Assembly: GCF_024609325.1 (NCBI RefSeq)
Contig: NZ_JANHMQ010000001.1
Span: forward strand, 1,240,001 to 1,304,000
From: Geothrix fuzhouensis
Lineage (GTDB): Bacteria > Acidobacteriota > Holophagae > Holophagales > Holophagaceae
Length of the DNA: 64,000 nt
Direction of reading: 5' to 3'
Positions within the stretch are counted from its first letter, which is position 1. Every line of letters begins with the position of its first letter. The notes beneath the pieces were generated by a model, which saw only the letters and a program-made list of their open reading frames with translations, made no database searches and was not told where the DNA came from. Both the position numbers and the translations under genes were made by a program. Below are positions 9,162-62,375 of the stretch, piece by piece.

Positions 9162-9238
9162 ACCACCAAGGCACCAAGACACCAAGAAAGACAACGAACT
9201 TGCCTTTGCAGTTCTTGGTGTCTTGGTGTCTTGGTGGT
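9162..9238. repeat. Inverted array, CACCAAGA 8-nt family (best copy)
   Basis: Left arm 9162-9188 is four partial units of CACCAAG(A/G); right arm 9212-9238 is its reverse complement with a single mismatch in 27, around a 23-base spacer. It lies between plsX and fabD, both minus-strand. Such a stem could cap or process a transcript. It is a second copy of the element at 4695-4793. Confidence 0.9.
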
Positions 9239-18483: not shown

Positions 18484-18578
18484 GAAAAAACAGGAACACA
18501 GAGGACACTGAGTTCGCACAGAGGACGCAGAGAGAGACAGGTCAGGGTTTTCTCTGCGCCCTCTGTGTTCCTGTTTTC
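18484..18578. repeat. Inverted array, ACACAGAGG 9-nt family
   Basis: Left side (18487-18532) has repeated ACAGAGGAC-type units starting AAAACAGGAACACAGAGG; right side (18550-18577) is the inverted form ending CCTCTGTGTTCCTGTTTT. It sits between the convergent ends of hldD and the SpoIIE-type gene, where it could act as a bidirectional stem. A related nested copy is at 42785-43168. Confidence 0.85.
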
Positions 18579-41862: not shown

Positions 41863-42584
41863 AGTGGCGCCTCGCGTTTCTGCTGGCCCTGGCGCTGCCC
41901 GAGCTGCCCCTGGACCCCTTCCACGGAGGCCTCGCCGCCTCACTTGCGCATCCCCTGGGCACGGATGATCTCGGACGGGACGCCCTACTGCGGCTGCTGC
42001 TGGCGGGTGGCCGCAGCGTGGGGTTCGCCAGCGCCTGCGCGTTGTTGGCCCTGGGATTGGCGCTCCTACTGGCCTGGTGGGGGCGACCCTGGCGCGGGGC
42101 CCTGTCCGCCCTCCGCAGCCTGCCGCCAGTATTGTTCCTGCTGCCGCTGGCCGCGGCCGCTGGGGGGATTGGCGCCGCGGCCCTCATCCTGCTGCTGGGC
42201 CTGCTCCTGGCCCCTCACCTGGAGCCACCTCTCCGCGGCAAGCTCGATGCCTTCCGCCATTCACCAGCCTGGGCGGCGGAGCGCACCCTGGGCGCCACAC
42301 CTGTCTCAACGCTCCGCCGCTGGGCCCCCTGGGGGCTGGAGCAGGCCGCAGTCCTCTTTCCCAGCGCATGGCTGGGCGCCCTCTGGGGCGAGGCCACCCT
42401 GTCTACCCTGGGCCTGGGTCCTGGCCCCGACCACGACAGCCTGGGCCGCCTGCTGCTGGAACAACTGCCCCGCCTGGCCACCGACCCGAGTCCACTCGGC
42501 TGGGGCGCCTTGGCCGTGGTGCTCGCGCTTGCCTGGAGCGCGTCCAAGCCGACCGCCAAAAAGAGAACTGCCACTAGCCGGTGA
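41859..42584 (+). CDS. Reduced DppC-like permease
   Basis: 241 residues. HPLGTDDLGRDALLRLLLAG is the clear DppC/OppC signature, followed by about five hydrophobic segments; the norm is near 290 residues. GTG start in GTGA overlap with the previous gene. No ATPase genes (DppD/DppF) follow. The last codons and the stop lie inside the left arm of the repeat element at 42576-42772. Confidence 0.65.
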   Translation: MKWRLAFLLALALPELPLDPFHGGLAASLAHPLGTDDLGRDALLRLLLAGGRSVGFASACALLALGLALLLAWWGRPWRGALSALRSLPPVLFLLPLAAAAGGIGAAALILLLGLLLAPHLEPPLRGKLDAFRHSPAWAAERTLGATPVSTLRRWAPWGLEQAAVLFPSAWLGALWGEATLSTLGLGPGPDHDSLGRLLLEQLPRLATDPSPLGWGALAVVLALAWSASKPTAKKRTATSR

Positions 42585-42772
42585 TGGACGGTGATAAAGC
42601 AGATCTCGGCTGAGCCCCGCAAGGGCCCGCCGAAGGCGGCCTCCGGCCAGGCCGGAGGTCAGTGAGGGAGCGAGGGCCGCACCCACCAAAAGGCGCGGCC
42701 CTCGTACCCTCACTGGAGCCCATGCTTGGGTGTGAGCGGCACCATCACCGTAATCACCGTTCATCACCGGCT
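42576..42772. repeat. Composite intergenic element A (ATCACTG-type arms, inner hairpin)
   Basis: Terminal arms 42576-42595 and 42753-42772 are inverted, 19/20 matching, built of GGTGATG/ATCACCG units. Inside is a strong hairpin: arms 42661-42680 and 42695-42714 pair in two perfect blocks (8 and 10 bp) around a 2x2 internal loop. A GC-rich module (42611-42660, GGCGGCCTCCGG) is shared with copy B in reverse. The left arm covers the stop codon of the DppC-like gene. Confidence 0.85.
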
Positions 42773-42784
42773 AAATCTGTCTTT

Positions 42785-45368: not shown

Positions 45369-46172
45369 ATGAACTGGACCTACATCGGGATCGCGGCCCT
45401 CCTGCCGCTGGCGGTGGCGCTGGGCGTGACCCTGGCCGCCGGAGCCATCCAGGCCATCCGTCTCAACCGCCAAGGCGGTGCCAGCGGTGAGGCCCTCCAT
45501 CGCCTGCTGCACTCCATGGCCCTAGTATTCCCCGTGGCCTTCCTGGTCGTTTCCCTCTGGGATGGACGAAAAGTCTGGAAAGGCCTGGCTGGCGTGGCCG
45601 TAGGCCGATTGGCCGACCAGCGCACCATGGGACTGCTTCGGGCCGGCGGCCACCGCTTCCTCCGGCAAGATCCCGCCAAGGCCGCCTACTGGTACAGGAA
45701 GGCTGCCGAAGGGGGCGATGCGGAGAGCCAGCTGCTCCTAGCCCGGGCCCTGAACCAGGGCGCGGGCCTGCCCAGAGACCCCGCGGAAGCCCTCCGGTGG
45801 GCCGGGGCATCCGGCAACCAGGGCAATGCCGATGCCATGGTTCTCGCCGGCGATCTTCAACGCCAGGTCGATCCCGGGACAGCCGTGACCTGGTACCGGA
45901 GGGCAGTCGAGGCCTACCGGGTGCGCATCCAGCACCGCGATCCAGACGCATGCATGGCCTACGGCCTGCTCTTGATCAACGGCAAAGGTATCGAAAAGGA
46001 CCCCGTGGAGGGCCTGGCCCACCTGTACCTGGCCCGTCGCTTGGGCCTCGATCCCTTCAAAGTCCTCATCATCCAGCTGAGTGAAGTCTCCCTATCCAAG
46101 CCCCAGCGCTCCGAAGCCGCCCAGCGCGCCCTAGCCATCCAGAAAACCTTGCCCCCCCAGGGGAAAAGCTGA
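45369..46172 (+). CDS. Membrane-anchored Sel1-repeat protein
   Basis: 267 residues. Two N-terminal hydrophobic segments (about 5-30 and 45-63), then Sel1-like repeats: AAYWYRKAAEGGDAESQ, LRWAGASGNQGNADAM, VTWYRRAVEAY, EGLAHLYLARRLGL. Helical repeats of this type mediate protein contacts. It starts one base after the bcp stop. Its last codons (GKS, stop) coincide with the end motif of a repeat array. Confidence 0.8.
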   Translation: MNWTYIGIAALLPLAVALGVTLAAGAIQAIRLNRQGGASGEALHRLLHSMALVFPVAFLVVSLWDGRKVWKGLAGVAVGRLADQRTMGLLRAGGHRFLRQDPAKAAYWYRKAAEGGDAESQLLLARALNQGAGLPRDPAEALRWAGASGNQGNADAMVLAGDLQRQVDPGTAVTWYRRAVEAYRVRIQHRDPDACMAYGLLLINGKGIEKDPVEGLAHLYLARRLGLDPFKVLIIQLSEVSLSKPQRSEAAQRALAIQKTLPPQGKS

Positions 46173-46273
46173 GACAGGATGAACAGGATTGAAAGACGGA
46201 TTAACAGGATCCCAAAAGCTTTACTGAATCCTTAATCCTGTTAATCAATCACTTAATCCTGTCAATCTTGTCC
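46164..46273. repeat. Facing inverted AACAGGATT arrays
   Basis: Left array 46164-46211 (GAAAAGC end motif, GACAGGAT, GAACAGGATT, TTAACAGGAT) faces the right array 46226-46273 (AATCCTTAATCCTGTTAATC...). The left end overlaps the stop codon of the Sel1 gene. It lies between the convergent Sel1 and fabI genes and could form a long stem. Confidence 0.85.
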
Positions 46274-46295
46274 AAGCCTTTCGAACTCCCGACGC

Positions 46296-47075: not shown

Positions 47076-47206
47076 GCGATCTCCTCCAGAGTCGTGTGCA
47101 GACAATCACTTAGCATAGCCGAACCCGCGCTACCGCGCTATACCCGGAGTCAGGACGAAGCCGCAGCTGCCAGTGATGACCGGACCCTGAAGCCTAAAGA
47201 TGTTCA

Positions 47207-47349
47207 GCCACCGATTTCAGTGATTTCACTGATCAATCCAGTGATTCTCTGTTCCAGCGCAGCACGGGCTCTAGGGAGGGTGTCAGGCCCATGCGGGAAG
47301 CATCCGGAGCCTAATCACTGCCATCACTGTAATCACTCGAATCGGTGGC
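47207..47349. repeat. Composite intergenic element D (short form)
   Basis: Arms 47207-47246 and 47312-47349 are inverted arrays of ATCACTG-type 9-mers (GCCACCGATT/AATCGGTGGC at the ends). The interior (47247-47311) keeps sequences of copy C in reverse (GGATGCTTCCCGCATGGGCC) but lacks the large hairpin, so it looks like a deletion form. It lies between the tandem ccdB and fabI genes. Confidence 0.8.
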
Positions 47350-47360
47350 GGAAAATATTT

Positions 47361-48264: not shown

Positions 48265-49359
48265 ATGCCCGTGCTCCCCTTGGCCCCCATCTCCCTCGTC
48301 ACCCTCATCGCTCTCGCCCCATCCACCGCTCATCCCTTCCGCGCCGACCTCAACGCCGGGCACTACCTCAAGGTGCTGGCCGAAGCCGAGGCCCGTCTGC
48401 GCCAGGACGGGGCCAACGCTGCTGCCTGGGCGGCCAAGTCCCAGGCCTTGTCCAGCCTGCAGCGGTTCACTGAGGCCCACTCCGCCGCTGACCGGGCGGT
48501 CTCCCTGCAACCGGGGTTGGCGGATGCCCTCCTGGCCCGGGGTCTGGCCCAGGCCGGCGAAGCCATCCGTCAGCGCGACCTCGGCAGCCTGCGGGGAGCC
48601 CTGGGTGCCATGGATGATTTGCGCGCCGCCACTCAGGCCGACCCCACCCTCGCCCCCGCCTGGATGAGCCTGGGGCTGGCCTACGAGCTGCTGCCGGGGA
48701 TCCTGGGCGGCTCCACGAAGAAGGCCCTGCGCTGCGCCGACCAGCTGCGGCGCGTGGCCCCCGCCCGGGGGGATCTGCTCCAGGCCCTGGTCCTGGTGGA
48801 AGAAGACCAGTGGTGGGAAGCCCAACCCTATTTCGGCCGCGCCTTGGCCCAGGCGCCGCAGGATCCCGAAGTGGTGGGCCAGTGGCTCGATGCCCTGGAC
48901 CGCCGACCTGCCAAGAAGGCCCTGGGCGAGGCTGGGAAGAACGCCCGACTGCTGGCCGAAGCCTCCCGTCTGCTGCCCGGCGTCCGCACCCGCGCCCGCG
49001 GCGTGGCCGCCGTCAGCGACGCCTACCTGCACGGTGGGCGGCCCGACCTCGCCTGGCAGGTCGTCCAGGAGCACCTCACCCAAGTGGACGCCCCCAGTCT
49101 GCTCCGACTCCAGATGGGCAAAGTGGCCGCCGTCAGCGGCCTCCACCGCCCTGAAGGCCTCGCCGCCCTCGACCAGGTGCTGCGCGAGCCCCTCGAAGGC
49201 GGCAGTTCCGGTTACCCCGGCGCCTGGTGGCGCAAAGGCCAGATCCTCCGCGACCTCGGCAGGAAGGACGAAGCCCGCAAAGCCGCCCAGGAAACCCTCA
49301 ATCTCGATCCCAGGCACCGGGGGGCGCGGGAACTGCTGGAAAACCTTGGACAGGATTGA
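48265..49359 (+). CDS. TPR-repeat protein
   Basis: 364 residues. A hydrophobic N-terminus (LAPISLVTLIALAPSTA) may be a signal peptide, then TPR-like helices: NAAAWAAKSQALSSLQRFTEA, PAWMSLGLAYELLPG, and a clear C-terminal unit GAWWRKGQILRDLGRKDEA. Probably periplasmic; function unknown. ATG 48265 abuts GGAGGG, so GTG 48271 is a possible real start. The final codons (GQD, stop) come from the AACAGGATT-type repeat. Confidence 0.75.
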   Translation: MPVLPLAPISLVTLIALAPSTAHPFRADLNAGHYLKVLAEAEARLRQDGANAAAWAAKSQALSSLQRFTEAHSAADRAVSLQPGLADALLARGLAQAGEAIRQRDLGSLRGALGAMDDLRAATQADPTLAPAWMSLGLAYELLPGILGGSTKKALRCADQLRRVAPARGDLLQALVLVEEDQWWEAQPYFGRALAQAPQDPEVVGQWLDALDRRPAKKALGEAGKNARLLAEASRLLPGVRTRARGVAAVSDAYLHGGRPDLAWQVVQEHLTQVDAPSLLRLQMGKVAAVSGLHRPEGLAALDQVLREPLEGGSSGYPGAWWRKGQILRDLGRKDEARKAAQETLNLDPRHRGARELLENLGQD

Positions 49360-49454
49360 CAGGATTAAAAGCTGGATTAACAAGATTAAAGCTGGCAATT
49401 TTGGTCGTTAATCCTGTTCATCCTTAAGAATCCTGTTCATCCTGTCCCTGCTTT
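49348..49454. repeat. Facing inverted AACAGGATT arrays after the TPR gene
   Basis: Left array 49348-49388 (GACAGGATTGACAGGATT ... GGATTAACAAGATT) and right array 49408-49454 (GTTAATCCTGTTCATCC ... CCTGTTCATCCTGTCC) are inverted. The right end carries the CCTGCTTTTCC motif also seen at 43159-43169. It overlaps the TPR stop codon. Confidence 0.85.
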
Positions 49455-49713
49455 TCCATGCATGTGTACTCCTGGATGGCCAGGAAACCCTCCGGCTCGA
49501 CTCCAAGCAGCAAACGTGTGAATGGATGGACGCAATGGAGCCGGGACACTGACCCATCGCGTCAGTCCCTTGACGGGAGGCTGGGCCCGGCGGCTCCCCA
49601 CAGGCGGAAACCTCACCTGATGCCTTTCCCCGTCAATGGTTCCATTTCTCCCTGGCCCCTTGGCACAGGTATTGATACCTTCAGTCGCGGCAACCGCCCA
49701 TTAGGAGATCTCC
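49455..49713 (+). promoter_or_regulatory. pilA upstream region with sigma-54-like site
   Basis: This 259-base leader of pilA has no convincing gene. TGGCAC (49661-49666), 5 bases, then TTGAT (49672-49676) resembles a -24/-12 sigma-54 promoter, with the -12 GC imperfect (GA). It lies 38 bases before the start codon; TTAGGAG supplies the ribosome site. Control by the NtrC-type regulator at 11640-13094 is possible. Confidence 0.4.
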
Positions 49714-54135: not shown

Positions 54136-55323
54136 CTAGGTGTACTTGATGTTGGGATTCCGCCCGCCCAACGCGGGATTGGTGGTGGTGGCCTGGGCCG
54201 CGGCAGCTCCGCGGCCACCGGCCGAGCCGAGGCCCACGCCCCGGTTGATGAGTTCCCGCAGTTCATCCACGTTCGACGAATACTCGAAGGCCTGCTCCTG
54301 GGTGATCTCCTTGCGGAGAACCAGGTCAGCCAGGCTCTGGTTGAAGGTCTGCATGCCGTATTTGGTCTGGCCGGACTGCATGGTGCCGTAGATCTGGTGG
54401 ACCTTGTCCTCGCGGATGAGGTTCCGGATGGCGGAGTTGGGGATCATGATCTCCAGAGCCAGGGCCCGCCCCTTGCCACTGGCTTTGGGGATGAGGCTCT
54501 GACAGATGACGCCTTCCAGCACCAGCGAGAGCTGGGCTCGGATCTGCGCCTGCTGGTGGCTGGGAAACACGTCGATGATGCGGTTGATGGTCTGCACCGT
54601 ACTGTTGGTGTGCAGGGTGCCGAAGGTGAGGTGGCCCGTCTCGGCAATGGTCAGGGCCGATTCGATGGTCTCCAGATCGCGCATTTCACCCACCAGCACT
54701 ACGTCGGGATCCTGGCGGAGGGCCGAACGCAAGGCCTTTTTGAAGCTGTGAGTGTCCGCGTGAATCTCCCGCTGGTTCACCAGTGCCCGCTTGTGTTTGT
54801 GGACGTATTCCACCGGGTCTTCGATGGTGAGGATGTGGACGGGCTCCTCGGCATTGATCTTGTCCACCATGGCGGCCAGGGTCGTGGACTTGCCGGAACC
54901 AGTCACGCCCGTCACCAGCACCAGGCCGCGGGGTTTGTCGCAGAGGGCCTGGACCGAGGGCGGCAGGTTGAGCTGCTCGAAGCTGCGGATGTTCTCGGGG
55001 ATCGTGCGGAAGACGCCCGCCGTGGCACCCCGCTGATTGAAGACGTTGGCACGGAAACGGGCCACGCCCTGGAGACCGAAGGAGAAGTCCACCTCCAGAT
55101 CCTCCTCGAGGCGGTGCTTCTGCTGATCAGTCATGACGCCATAGCAAAGCCAGCGGGTCTGGGAGGCGTCCAGCGGGGGTAGCTTGAGAGGCACCATGCG
55201 CCCATCGATGCGGATCTGCGGCGCCGATTCCGTGGTGATGTGAAGGTCCGTGCCTCCGTACTCCACCATGGTCTTGAGCAGCTGCTGCAGCGGAGCTACG
55301 TAGTTGGCACCAATGTCACTCAT
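54136..55323 (-). CDS. pilT: Type IV pilus retraction ATPase
   Basis: 395 residues. Walker A GVTGSGKST (near 139-147), Asp box IEDPVEYVHKHK, His box HLTFGTLHTNS, and the PilT-specific AIRNLIRE motif in the C-terminal domain. A Gly/Ala-rich tail (about 30 residues) extends beyond the usual end. Powers pilus retraction and twitching. Confidence 0.96.
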   Translation of the reverse strand: MSDIGANYVAPLQQLLKTMVEYGGTDLHITTESAPQIRIDGRMVPLKLPPLDASQTRWLCYGVMTDQQKHRLEEDLEVDFSFGLQGVARFRANVFNQRGATAGVFRTIPENIRSFEQLNLPPSVQALCDKPRGLVLVTGVTGSGKSTTLAAMVDKINAEEPVHILTIEDPVEYVHKHKRALVNQREIHADTHSFKKALRSALRQDPDVVLVGEMRDLETIESALTIAETGHLTFGTLHTNSTVQTINRIIDVFPSHQQAQIRAQLSLVLEGVICQSLIPKASGKGRALALEIMIPNSAIRNLIREDKVHQIYGTMQSGQTKYGMQTFNQSLADLVLRKEITQEQAFEYSSNVDELRELINRGVGLGSAGGRGAAAAQATTTNPALGGRNPNIKYT

Positions 55324-55350
55324 GCTGGCCTCGGGAAAAACAACTGCTTG

Positions 55351-55390
55351 GACGGGATTAACAGGATGGAAGGCAGGATTAACAGGATTC
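55351..55390. repeat. AACAGGATT-family array at the 3' side of the GxxExxY gene
   Basis: GGATTAACAGGATGG, then GGATTAACAGGATTC, 9-nt-like units. The TTA at 55379-55381 inside the second unit is the stop codon of the GxxExxY gene on the other strand. It faces the array at 55795-55837. Confidence 0.88.
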
Positions 55391-55777
55391 TTGGAGTCGA
55401 GGGCTCCGGAACTTCTTCTTCACTTGGAGGCTCCGGGCACCGAAGTTCAGGAGCAAAGCCCGTTCCAGGCCGGTGGCGGTCAAGTAATTGACGACTTGCA
55501 CCTCGTGCTCGGGGAGGATGGCCTGGACAGCTTTCAATTCAAGGGTCAGGGATCCATCCACCAGAAGATCTGCCCGGTACTGCCCGACAAGCTCGCCCCG
55601 GTAGTGGACTTCGAGCCGCACTTCGCGTTCGAACGGGATGCCGCCCAGGGCCATCTCGAGGGCCAGGGCATTCTGGTACACCGCTTCACTGAACCCAGAC
55701 CCCAGCGTGGAATGCACCCTCATCGCCGCGCCGATGACACGTCCCGAAAGTTCTTCCAGCACAGCCCCAACCACCAT
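55379..55777 (-). CDS. GxxExxY protein with PD-(D/E)XK nuclease-like residues
   Basis: 132 residues, complete. GFSEAVY (28-34) is the naming motif, and RADLLVDGSLTLELKAV gives Asp70, Glu80 and Lys82 in PD-(D/E)XK spacing. Pfam groups the family under PDDEXK_3 as I recall; its function is not established. It lies between pilT and pilB, framed on both sides by inverted AACAGGATT arrays, and its last residues (ESC) and stop codon are repeat-derived. It looks like cargo inserted into the pilus operon rather than part of the machine. Confidence 0.85.
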   Translation of the reverse strand: MVVGAVLEELSGRVIGAAMRVHSTLGSGFSEAVYQNALALEMALGGIPFEREVRLEVHYRGELVGQYRADLLVDGSLTLELKAVQAILPEHEVQVVNYLTATGLERALLLNFGARSLQVKKKFRSPRLQESC

Positions 55778-55794
55778 TCCCGTCCCACTCTTTC

Positions 55795-55837
55795 AAAATC
55801 CTGTTAATCCAGCTTTCAATCCTGTTAATCCTGTCAA
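55795..55837. repeat. AACAGGATT-family array at the 5' side of the GxxExxY gene
   Basis: AAATCCTGTT AATCCAGCTTTC AATCCTGTT AATCCTGTC, opposite in orientation to the array at 55351-55390. The two arrays frame the gene 55379-55777 as a unit of about 490 bases between pilT and pilB. Confidence 0.88.
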
Positions 55838-55863
55838 AGAACTTGGCAAACGTGGGTCGGCGC

Positions 55864-57699
55864 CTAGAGGACTGTCTCGCGGATGATCTCTTCGATGGTG
55901 GTCACGCCGTCGAGGACCTTGCGGCACCCGGAGCGGCGGAGGGTGATCATGCCCTCCTTCTGGCCCTGCTCGCGCAGTTCGATGGCCGAGGCCCCGGTGA
56001 GGATCATGTCCTTGAGGGTCTCCGACATCTCCAGCACCTCGTAGAGGCCCACGCGGCCCTTGTAGCCACGCTTGTTGCAAATATCGCACCCGACGGGCTT
56101 GTAGAAGGTGATGCCCCGCTGGATCTCCTCCGGGGTGAACCCCACCTCGCGCAGGGCCTCTTCGGGCTGGTGGTGGGTGTCCACGGCTTTGCAGCTGGCG
56201 CAAAGGCGGCGCACGAGACGCTGGGCGCAGATGATGTTCACAGAGGTGGCCACCAGGAACGGCTCCACGCCCATGTTCATGAGGCGGTTGATGGTACTGG
56301 GGGCGTCGTTGGTGTGCAGGGTGGACAGCACCAGATGGCCCGTGAGGCTCGCCTTGATGGCGATCTCGGCCGTCTCGAAGTCGCGGATTTCGCCCACCAG
56401 GATGATGTTCGGATCCTGCCGGAGGAAGGAGCGCAAGGCCGCCGCGAAGTTGAGGCCGATCTGCTCCTTCATCTGCACCTGGTTGATGCCGGGGAAGTTG
56501 AACTCAACCGGATCCTCGGCGGTGAGGATGTTTGTGTCCACCGTGTTGAGCTTGGCGATGGAGGAGTACAGGGTGTTGGTCTTGCCAGATCCCGTGGGCC
56601 CCGTCACCAGCACCATGCCGTAGGGCTTCGAGATCTGCCGATCCCAGCGATCCAGGCTTTCCTGTTCGAAGCCGAGCTTGGTGAGGTCGAGCATGAGCTT
56701 GTCGCTGTCCAGCAGCCGCAGCACGATCTTCTCGCCGAACAGGGTTGGCAGAATGCTCACGCGGTAGTCGATGACCTTCTGCCGGCCACCCATGTTCACG
56801 CGGAGCTTGATGCGGCCGTCCTGGGGCAGGCGCTTCTCGGCGATGTTGAGCTTGGCCAGGATCTTCACGCGGGAGGTGAGGGGATCCTTCAGCTTCAGGT
56901 TCGGGCGCATCACCTCCATGAGGATGCCGTCGATGCGGAACCGGATGCGGTAGTTCTTTTCGTAGGGTTCGATGTGGATGTCGGAGGCCCCGCGCTTGAT
57001 GGCGTCGATGAGCACCATGTTCACGAGCTTCACCACCGGGGCATCCTCGCTGCCCTTCTTCAGGGCGCCGACGTTGATGCTCTCCTCGTCGTCGTCGGTG
57101 GCCTCGAACTCGGCGTCGGCATCCAGCTCCTGCTCCAGTTCCTGGAGGTCGAACTGTTCGTCCAGCTCGTTGAAGGGCTTGGCTGCGGTGGTGTCGATGG
57201 GCCCGGCCCCCGCGGGTCCGCCGCCCATGGTGGCGCGGCCGCCCTGGCTATCGGCAAGACGCACACCACTGGCGCCGCCATAGTACTTCTCGACCGCCCG
57301 CACCAAGCCCATCTCGCTGGACACGACGGGATCCACGTTGTAGCCGGTGTGGAACCGCACGTCGTCCATGGCGAAGATATCGGTGGGATCCGACATGGCC
57401 AGAGTCAGCACATTGCCCGTGCGCTGGAGGGGCAACACCTTGTGGCGCTGGGCCAGATCCTTCGGGATCAGGGCGATGACACCCGCATCGATAGGGGGCC
57501 ATTGCTCCAGATCCGCGGCCGGAACTCCGTACTGCATGCCGAGGAAGCTCACGATGTCCTGATCTGAACAGTAGCCCTGGCGCACGACGATGCTTCCGAG
57601 CTTGCCGCCTTCACGCCGCTGGATTTTCATAACGTCTTCCAGCTGTACATCCGTGATGAGCTGGGCCTTGACTAGCATTTCCCCGAGCTTACTTGCCAC
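55864..57699 (-). CDS. pilB: Type IV pilus extension ATPase
   Basis: 611 residues from GTG 57699 (GGAGG 7 bases upstream; the GTG at 57735 has no spacing to its ribosome site). N-terminal MshE-N domain (SKLGEMLVKAQLIT), an acidic linker around 180-220, then Walker [11 protein letters not shown] near 367, Asp box AEDPVEFNFPG, Walker B LVGEIRDFETA, and a Cys4 zinc site (CASC ... CDICNKRGYKG). Drives pilus polymerisation with PilC. Confidence 0.95.
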   Translation of the reverse strand: MASKLGEMLVKAQLITDVQLEDVMKIQRREGGKLGSIVVRQGYCSDQDIVSFLGMQYGVPAADLEQWPPIDAGVIALIPKDLAQRHKVLPLQRTGNVLTLAMSDPTDIFAMDDVRFHTGYNVDPVVSSEMGLVRAVEKYYGGASGVRLADSQGGRATMGGGPAGAGPIDTTAAKPFNELDEQFDLQELEQELDADAEFEATDDDEESINVGALKKGSEDAPVVKLVNMVLIDAIKRGASDIHIEPYEKNYRIRFRIDGILMEVMRPNLKLKDPLTSRVKILAKLNIAEKRLPQDGRIKLRVNMGGRQKVIDYRVSILPTLFGEKIVLRLLDSDKLMLDLTKLGFEQESLDRWDRQISKPYGMVLVTGPTGSGKTNTLYSSIAKLNTVDTNILTAEDPVEFNFPGINQVQMKEQIGLNFAAALRSFLRQDPNIILVGEIRDFETAEIAIKASLTGHLVLSTLHTNDAPSTINRLMNMGVEPFLVATSVNIICAQRLVRRLCASCKAVDTHHQPEEALREVGFTPEEIQRGITFYKPVGCDICNKRGYKGRVGLYEVLEMSETLKDMILTGASAIELREQGQKEGMITLRRSGCRKVLDGVTTIEEIIRETVL

Positions 57700-57804
57700 T
57701 GGCTGCCTCCGGATGGGGTAAGCCGATGGTATCACCTCCTGAAGTCATCCCCGCGTCTGGCTGTATCTCCCGGTCCGCCGGTCTTCACTTAGTCCGGCCC
57801 ATTG

Positions 57805-62165: not shown

Positions 62166-62181
62166 GTCTGGTCAATCCTCT

Positions 62182-62209
62182 GTCTTCAAATCTTCAGTCT
62201 TAAGTCCTC
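62182..62209. repeat. Short GACTGAA-type repeat (complement)
   Basis: GTCTTCAAA TCTTCA GTCTTAA GTCCTC: about four degenerate 7-8 nt units in the 210-base gap between dnaJ and the dnaK-like gene. It resembles the other short-period families in style but is short and lacks a facing partner. The rest of the gap shows nothing clear. Confidence 0.45.
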
Positions 62210-62375
62210 GGCGTTCCGTGGCCTTCCTCACCAGGGCCGCCCGGCTCATTCAGGCATCTTGGCGAAAGCGTTGGCAAGCCCCACCACTCAGCGGGCCACT
62301 TTCTGGGTCAACCCGATCAGATGTCTATTCTCTCCCAAAAAGCTCCACAGCCGGACCCTCTGGAATGGCCTGAGG

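Follow-up and report, generated by a model that had tools for sequence, protein, structure and literature searches.

A 505-bp inverted-repeat unit, made up of a GxxExxY gene and two facing AACAGGATT-type arrays, lies at positions 55341–55845 between the pilB and pilT genes of the window, i.e., the whole 64,000-nucleotide stretch of Geothrix fuzhouensis DNA analysed here. The unit is best regarded, with a probability of roughly 0.6, as belonging to a mobile-element family whose small members are bounded by facing arrays, with a cognate nuclease that acts on them. In this family, each array comprises 2–4 tandem units, the core of which approximates C[AG]C[ACG][AG]A[GT] for the majority of clades (for the pil-site unit, AACAGGATT), and the full form of the element encodes a single RecB/Cas4-like protein of 125–135 aa. 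The nuclease would bind its own units, probably with one subunit on each arm of an extruded hairpin, and would cut at the element ends; the element, and gene-less copies in trans, would move or be copied into intergenic DNA. Such a spread would resemble the role proposed for RAYT transposases in the dispersal of REPINs.

The GxxExxY gene (132 aa) occupies positions 55379–55777 on the minus strand and encodes a predicted minimal RecB/Cas4-like PD-(D/E)XK nuclease. The insertion site is flanked on the 3′ side by pilT (54136–55323, minus strand, PF00437) and on the 5′ side by pilB (55864–57735, minus strand, PF00437 and MshEN), both of which served in the empty-site comparison. These coordinates bear out the initial annotation, which had placed the gene between pilT and pilB, bracketed by opposite-facing arrays. 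The arm at the 3′ end of the gene (55341–55389, plus strand, CAACTGCTTGGACGGGATTAACAGGATGGAAGGCAGGATTAACAGGATT, inverted-repeat score 35) contains the TAA stop codon of the gene, as had also been claimed. The arm on the 5′ side (55797–55845, minus strand) is the inverted copy and reads CAAGTTCTTTGACAGGATTAACAGGATTGAAAGCTGGATTAACAGGATT on that strand. AACAGGATT is found at positions 55360 and 55381 on the plus strand and at 55797, 55818 and 55827 on the minus strand. The window holds 12 copies of this word against 0.19 expected, and the whole genome 46 against a single copy of the reversed word. The units at the pil site are 9 and 12 nt long and follow in the order 9-12-9-9, so the earlier description of arrays of 9-nt AACAGGATT is right in substance at this site and inexact as to unit length. 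Other copies of the family have units of 8–10 nt.

The protein matches TIGR04256 over the full length of the profile (135 bits against a cut-off of 35, profile positions 2–115 of 116). Its sole Pfam match is PF13366 (PDDEXK_3; 132 bits, cut-off 22), and with this match and a RecB/Cas4-like fold it is not an HUH Y1 transposase of the kind found among the IS200/IS605 relatives. Residues G28, E31, Y34, D70, K82 and Y98 are invariant across 60 homologues, and E80 and Q94 are conserved in at least 90% of them, which confirms the complete gene with D70/E80/K82 reported earlier. The motif order of the RecB/Cas4 family is D, ExK, QxxxY, and residues D70, E80, K82, Q94 and Y98 of the window protein fit this order. 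The AlphaFold2 model is confident (pLDDT 94, pTM 0.86), and the solved structures nearest to it are Cas4 SSO0001, LHK exonuclease, AddAB and lambda exonuclease. The Foldseek match to Cas4 SSO0001 (4ic1) has an E-value of 8.9e-5 and a TMq of 0.60; the VIA comparison with 4ic1 gave Z = 9.9 and 4.3 Å over 100 residues, with restriction enzymes and Holliday-junction resolvases ranking below Cas4. A search of the PDB by sequence returned no relative. The confident model is that of a minimal RecB/Cas4-type nuclease in which no motif is missing, and nuclease activity is expected from the fold and motifs. Fold and motif order are common to the model and the Cas4/RecB-type nucleases (SSO0001, LHK-exo, lambda exonuclease and the AddAB nuclease domain); unlike these, the GxxExxY protein is about 130 aa long in total and has no additional domain. 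No CRISPR or recombination gene adjoins it at the window locus. PHROGs gave weak matches only, all unnamed, and PADLOC gave no match and thus no support for a listed defence system.

The genome has six GxxExxY genes, and all of them have flanking inverted arrays, the units of which differ. AACAGGATT is beside none of the other five, where the units are ACACCGATGA, a similar CACCGAT/GCTGATGAA mix, AGCGGAGGA, AATCACTGA/GACGGTGAT and the ACACAGAGG type; one of the five (L005) features a longer inverted repeat outside its arrays. A plain lag-9 autocorrelation gave a weak signal around GxxExxY genes because the units are 8–10 nt long with variable linkers, and an inverted-repeat test was therefore used instead, in which the upstream flank was compared with the downstream flank at a threshold score of at least 18 and control ORFs were treated identically. 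For the loci of the genus, the median score was 24.5 within a locus and 10 between loci. The threshold was reached by 74% of 74 cross-phylum GxxExxY genes versus 2.8% of 394 neighbouring ORFs (Mann–Whitney p = 3e-28). The first cross-phylum set came from a scan with a narrower subfamily (GPGLLES), chosen because the full family alignment was too diverse, and is hence biased; it was widened by searching for all GxxExxY family members in 40 of its genomes. In the larger set, inverted arms surround 88% of the 68 genus genes and 80% of the 128 genes sampled outside the genus. By group, as assigned from record titles, arms were found in planctomycetes (30/32), pseudomonadota (13/16), verrucomicrobia (6/7), bacteroidota (6/7) and archaea (2/3). 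Successive unit cores are spaced by 8 nt (199 cases), 9 nt (143) or 10 nt (60), and the cores of upstream arms point inward in 125 cases and outward in 10, with 42 ambiguous. The enrichment of arrays near GxxExxY genes, for which the initial annotation had proposed a comparison with random genes, is strong relative to neighbouring ORFs both in the genus and in many phyla. As a hallmark of these genes, arrays are general, with each nuclease clade having its own unit; the hallmark is not specifically the 9-nt AACAGGATT. A subclade represented by L289, L312, L313 and L317, most members of which start with LCDQIRQ or similar, is mostly without arms and is possibly a host-adopted form.

The array unit follows the protein clade. 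The RxASxIVDAAIKVH clade is found with the CACCAAG unit, the AKAREVVDAGFxVH clade with CACGAAG, the EITEKVLGAAIEVHKH clade with CACGGAG and the LSQRVIAACIEVH clade with CGCAGAG/CACAGAG. When pairs from different phyla only were compared, protein identity and arm similarity were correlated with a Spearman rho of 0.388, the best of 500 permutations reaching 0.118. Among different-phylum pairs with 58–75% protein identity, one third of the arms align at a score of at least 15; the sequences immediately beyond the arms never do. We interpret this as selection maintaining the arms jointly with the GxxExxY protein, and gene and arms almost certainly make up one selected, co-inherited unit. The cassette originally described, equipped with a nuclease and repeats of its own, is well supported, including by this cross-phylum co-variation; that it is repeat-guided and mobile by its own nuclease we infer. 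It is quite probable that the nuclease acts on its arms.

In this genome, there is no gene inside the majority of array pairs. Gene-less elements with AACAGGATT units lie in the window at 46163–46282 (two facing arms, hairpin z −8.2) and 49337–49458 (hairpin z −6.9), and an element with three CACCAAG units per arm at 9162–9238 (hairpin z −9.1). Facing array pairs with CACAGAG-type, CGGTGAT-type and CAGTGATT-type units are located at 18487–18577, 42575–42773 and 47196–47360, respectively. Strong hairpins were predicted for all four gene-less elements folded (z −7 to −11). The 19 gene-less CACCAAG copies inspected in the genome G008 have one design, namely ACCACCAAGRCACCAAGRCACCAAG, a variable loop and the inverted copy, and their flanks are unrelated.

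Occupancy differs between species at four of the five gene-less sites that were followed into five relatives. One G008 CACCAAG copy (L405) is absent from all five relatives (L412–L416), where a GC-rich terminator-like hairpin is found instead, a position suggesting that, once inserted, the palindromes may act as terminators. At another site, G015 and G000 have the same element, G018 has an element with other units, and G006 and G007 have none. At two further sites, CACCAAG units are present in G008 where G000 has CGCAGATGG or AACAGGATT units. Elements of this family very probably turn over between genomes. The same observations bear on a regulatory explanation, in which the arrays would act as operators or terminators, the protein would control its own expression by binding to its arms and the gene-less palindromes would be bidirectional terminators spread by recombination. 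The very stable predicted hairpins are consistent with it, as is the element located where five relatives have a terminator-like hairpin. However, it leaves unexplained the catalytic motifs, the insertion polymorphism, the cross-phylum conservation and the finding that a single intergenic site can be occupied by one unit family in one species and by another in its sister species, and PF13366 is a superfamily of nucleases and not of repressors. We consider this explanation improbable.

The number of repeats is related to the presence of the cognate gene. AACAGGATT occurs 46, 42, 41 and 27 times in the four genomes whose pil site carries the gene, versus 4–20 times in nine without it there (exact p = 0.0014, genomes treated as independent despite their shared ancestry). 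The median count of CNCCAAGRCNCCAAG (CCAAG units) is 62 in genomes with a gene of the CACCAAG/CGCCAAG clade and 13 in those without one (p = 0.0035, genomes again treated as independent). Both words are infrequent in genomes lacking GxxExxY genes, and gene-less arrays are present in such genomes as well. G022 is an exception, having 102 CCAAG matches without a known full-length cognate gene. It is somewhat more likely than not that the nuclease drives the spread of the elements.

At one locus of G008 (L402, contig C6, 551–1519), a DUF4268 gene of 322 aa is located inside CACCAAG arms in place of GxxExxY. DUF4268 was rejected as a regular partner of the arms, this being a single copy among 41 genomes.

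The abundance of elements without a gene could also mean that the palindromes are an independent repeat family, spread by the host or by another enzyme, and that GxxExxY is one of several riders. The occurrence of arrays in genomes without a GxxExxY gene, the ability of a DUF4268 gene to occupy CCAAG arms and the presence of unrelated four-helix-bundle genes in similar arrays point in the same direction. Yet a rider would not be expected to match its repeat by clade across phyla, to be flanked in 80–88% of cases versus 2.8% for other genes or to predict the copy number of its own unit, and the rider explanation is unlikely. Against the preferred reading of mobile elements with a cognate nuclease are counted the scattered pil-site carriers, the target-site duplications looked for and not found, the copy-number p-values that take no account of shared ancestry, the arrays in GxxExxY-free genomes, G022, DUF4268 within arms and the armless subclade.

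The initial annotation had proposed looking for empty sites in the pilT–pilB spacing of close relatives, and such sites prevail. Neither this check nor the one on array enrichment contradicted its interpretation. The locus was found in 20 same-genus relatives, 15 of which have a pilB–pilT spacer of 11–15 bp and one a spacer of 47 bp. The spacer is 540–590 bp long, with the gene and AACAGGATT arms, in this genome and in G008, G009 and G011. In G017, the outer arms are kept and a second, nested array element lies inside them with no GxxExxY gene. The genes of G008, G009 and G011 are 77–90% identical to the window gene. All pairs among the four carriers gave dN/dS values of 0.05–0.18 at dS of about 1–1.8, and the pil-site gene is, judging by these substitution rates, under purifying selection. 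The arms are nearly unchanged over the same distance, the 5′ arm being kept in all three relatives. The carriers are scattered on the tree of neighbouring genes, which gives losses or allele exchange at the pil site the same likelihood as new insertions. The carriers have some sequence beyond the arms in common, and this favours a single old insertion with either later losses or later allele exchange. Neither the pil site nor four gene-less sites showed a target-site duplication, but their flanks are diverged.

A single small PD-(D/E)XK gene with a scattered presence at one orthologous site is also what a free-standing homing endonuclease would look like. In that case, GxxExxY would cut the allele lacking the gene, and the arms would be its recognition site duplicated around the gene. 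However, the unit is absent from the empty sites, GxxExxY genes lie at many unrelated sites within one genome and gene-less arm pairs are abundant, which makes homing very improbable. The neighbouring pilC–pilT spacer also varies, measuring 473–790 bp in G009, G017 and G011 (L331, L332 and L336) and about 70–90 bp in others; by eye, the long spacers seem to encode a small nucleotidyltransferase-like protein.

Among known systems, RAYT/REPIN elements offer the closest likeness in behaviour to the mobile elements proposed here. RAYT genes are described as lying between inverted cognate repeats with which they co-evolve, with a repeat copy number that follows the gene and with non-autonomous elements (PMC2817692). 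The GxxExxY genes have inverted cognate flanks, co-variation of repeat and protein and, with genomes treated as independent, a gene-dependent copy number. The two systems (PMC2817692, PMC3116915) have in common a gene between two inverted cognate repeats, repeats and proteins that co-vary, gene-less inverted hairpin-forming doublets between genes and a correlation of gene presence with the number of cognate repeats. In contrast, RAYT is an HUH tyrosine transposase and GxxExxY a predicted RecB/Cas4-like PD-(D/E)XK nuclease, and RAYT/REPIN ends are single palindromic REPs, whereas those of GxxExxY elements are tandem arrays of 8–10-nt units. The comparison is best read as pointing to elements that would work like RAYT/REPIN yet share no homologous part with it, either in enzyme class or in end structure, and for this reason the element kind is called new; sorted by behaviour alone, GxxExxY elements could count as RAYT/REPIN-like. 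MITEs and insertion sequences are similar in their terminal inverted repeats, non-autonomous copies and empty sites. They differ in that GxxExxY elements lack any DDE, HUH, serine or tyrosine recombinase and end in tandem arrays; a target duplication was not seen in the diverged flanks compared.

Among 5.39 million open papers, two mention GxxExxY in passing and one mentions PF13366, with no function or link to repeats, and the tested repeat sequences were not found there. The search covered open papers, and the novelty is therefore provisional. GxxExxY proteins are annotated across bacteria and archaea without a known role, and the elements offer a testable one; puzzling short intergenic repeats are now tied to cognate proteins. 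The findings suggest that mobile DNA behaving like RAYT/REPIN had at least one further origin, in a RecB/Cas4-type nuclease. About a dozen units in one genus provide a natural set for studying the sequence specificity of a minimal nuclease.

Genes for four-helix-bundle proteins (S23p, TIGR02436) also lie between inverted arrays, both in the genus and at 28 cross-phylum loci (L176–L192, L362–L391). Their array units are mostly 7–8 nt long, e.g., AGCTATC, GTCTTCA and AGTTAGCA, and the inverted-repeat score is at least 18 in 54% of the 28 loci versus 0% between loci. The S23p-encoding intervening sequence of Coxiella has terminal inverted repeats and tandem GACAGAT heptamers before the gene (PMC4990558). 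For the TAACTGA heptamers of Beggiatoaceae, a repeat-binding protein, not yet known, was proposed as a possible mobile part (PMC4679880). These two cases and the cyanobacterial STRRs resemble the arrays studied here in being tandem 7-nt intergenic repeats of unexplained origin. They match the four-helix-bundle elements (7–8 nt) and not the GxxExxY elements (8–10 nt), and no nuclease is linked to them. More tentatively, bacteria and archaea may have a new class of miniature mobile DNA based on a stand-alone Cas4-like nuclease that recognises the tandem 8–10-nt repeats at its ends and spreads itself together with gene-less hairpin copies, with a parallel S23p class with 7–8-nt repeats behind the short tandem repeats of many bacteria.

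Between dnaJ and dnaK, at 62166–62375, the window itself contains what is left of a four-helix-bundle element, the repeats of which are of the GACTGAAGA type. This element is absent from most other genomes (spacer of about 39 bp), is present as a remnant in G017 and is intact in G008, G009 and G011. The dnaJ–dnaK element and the pil-site insertion, or its arms, are found in the same five genomes.
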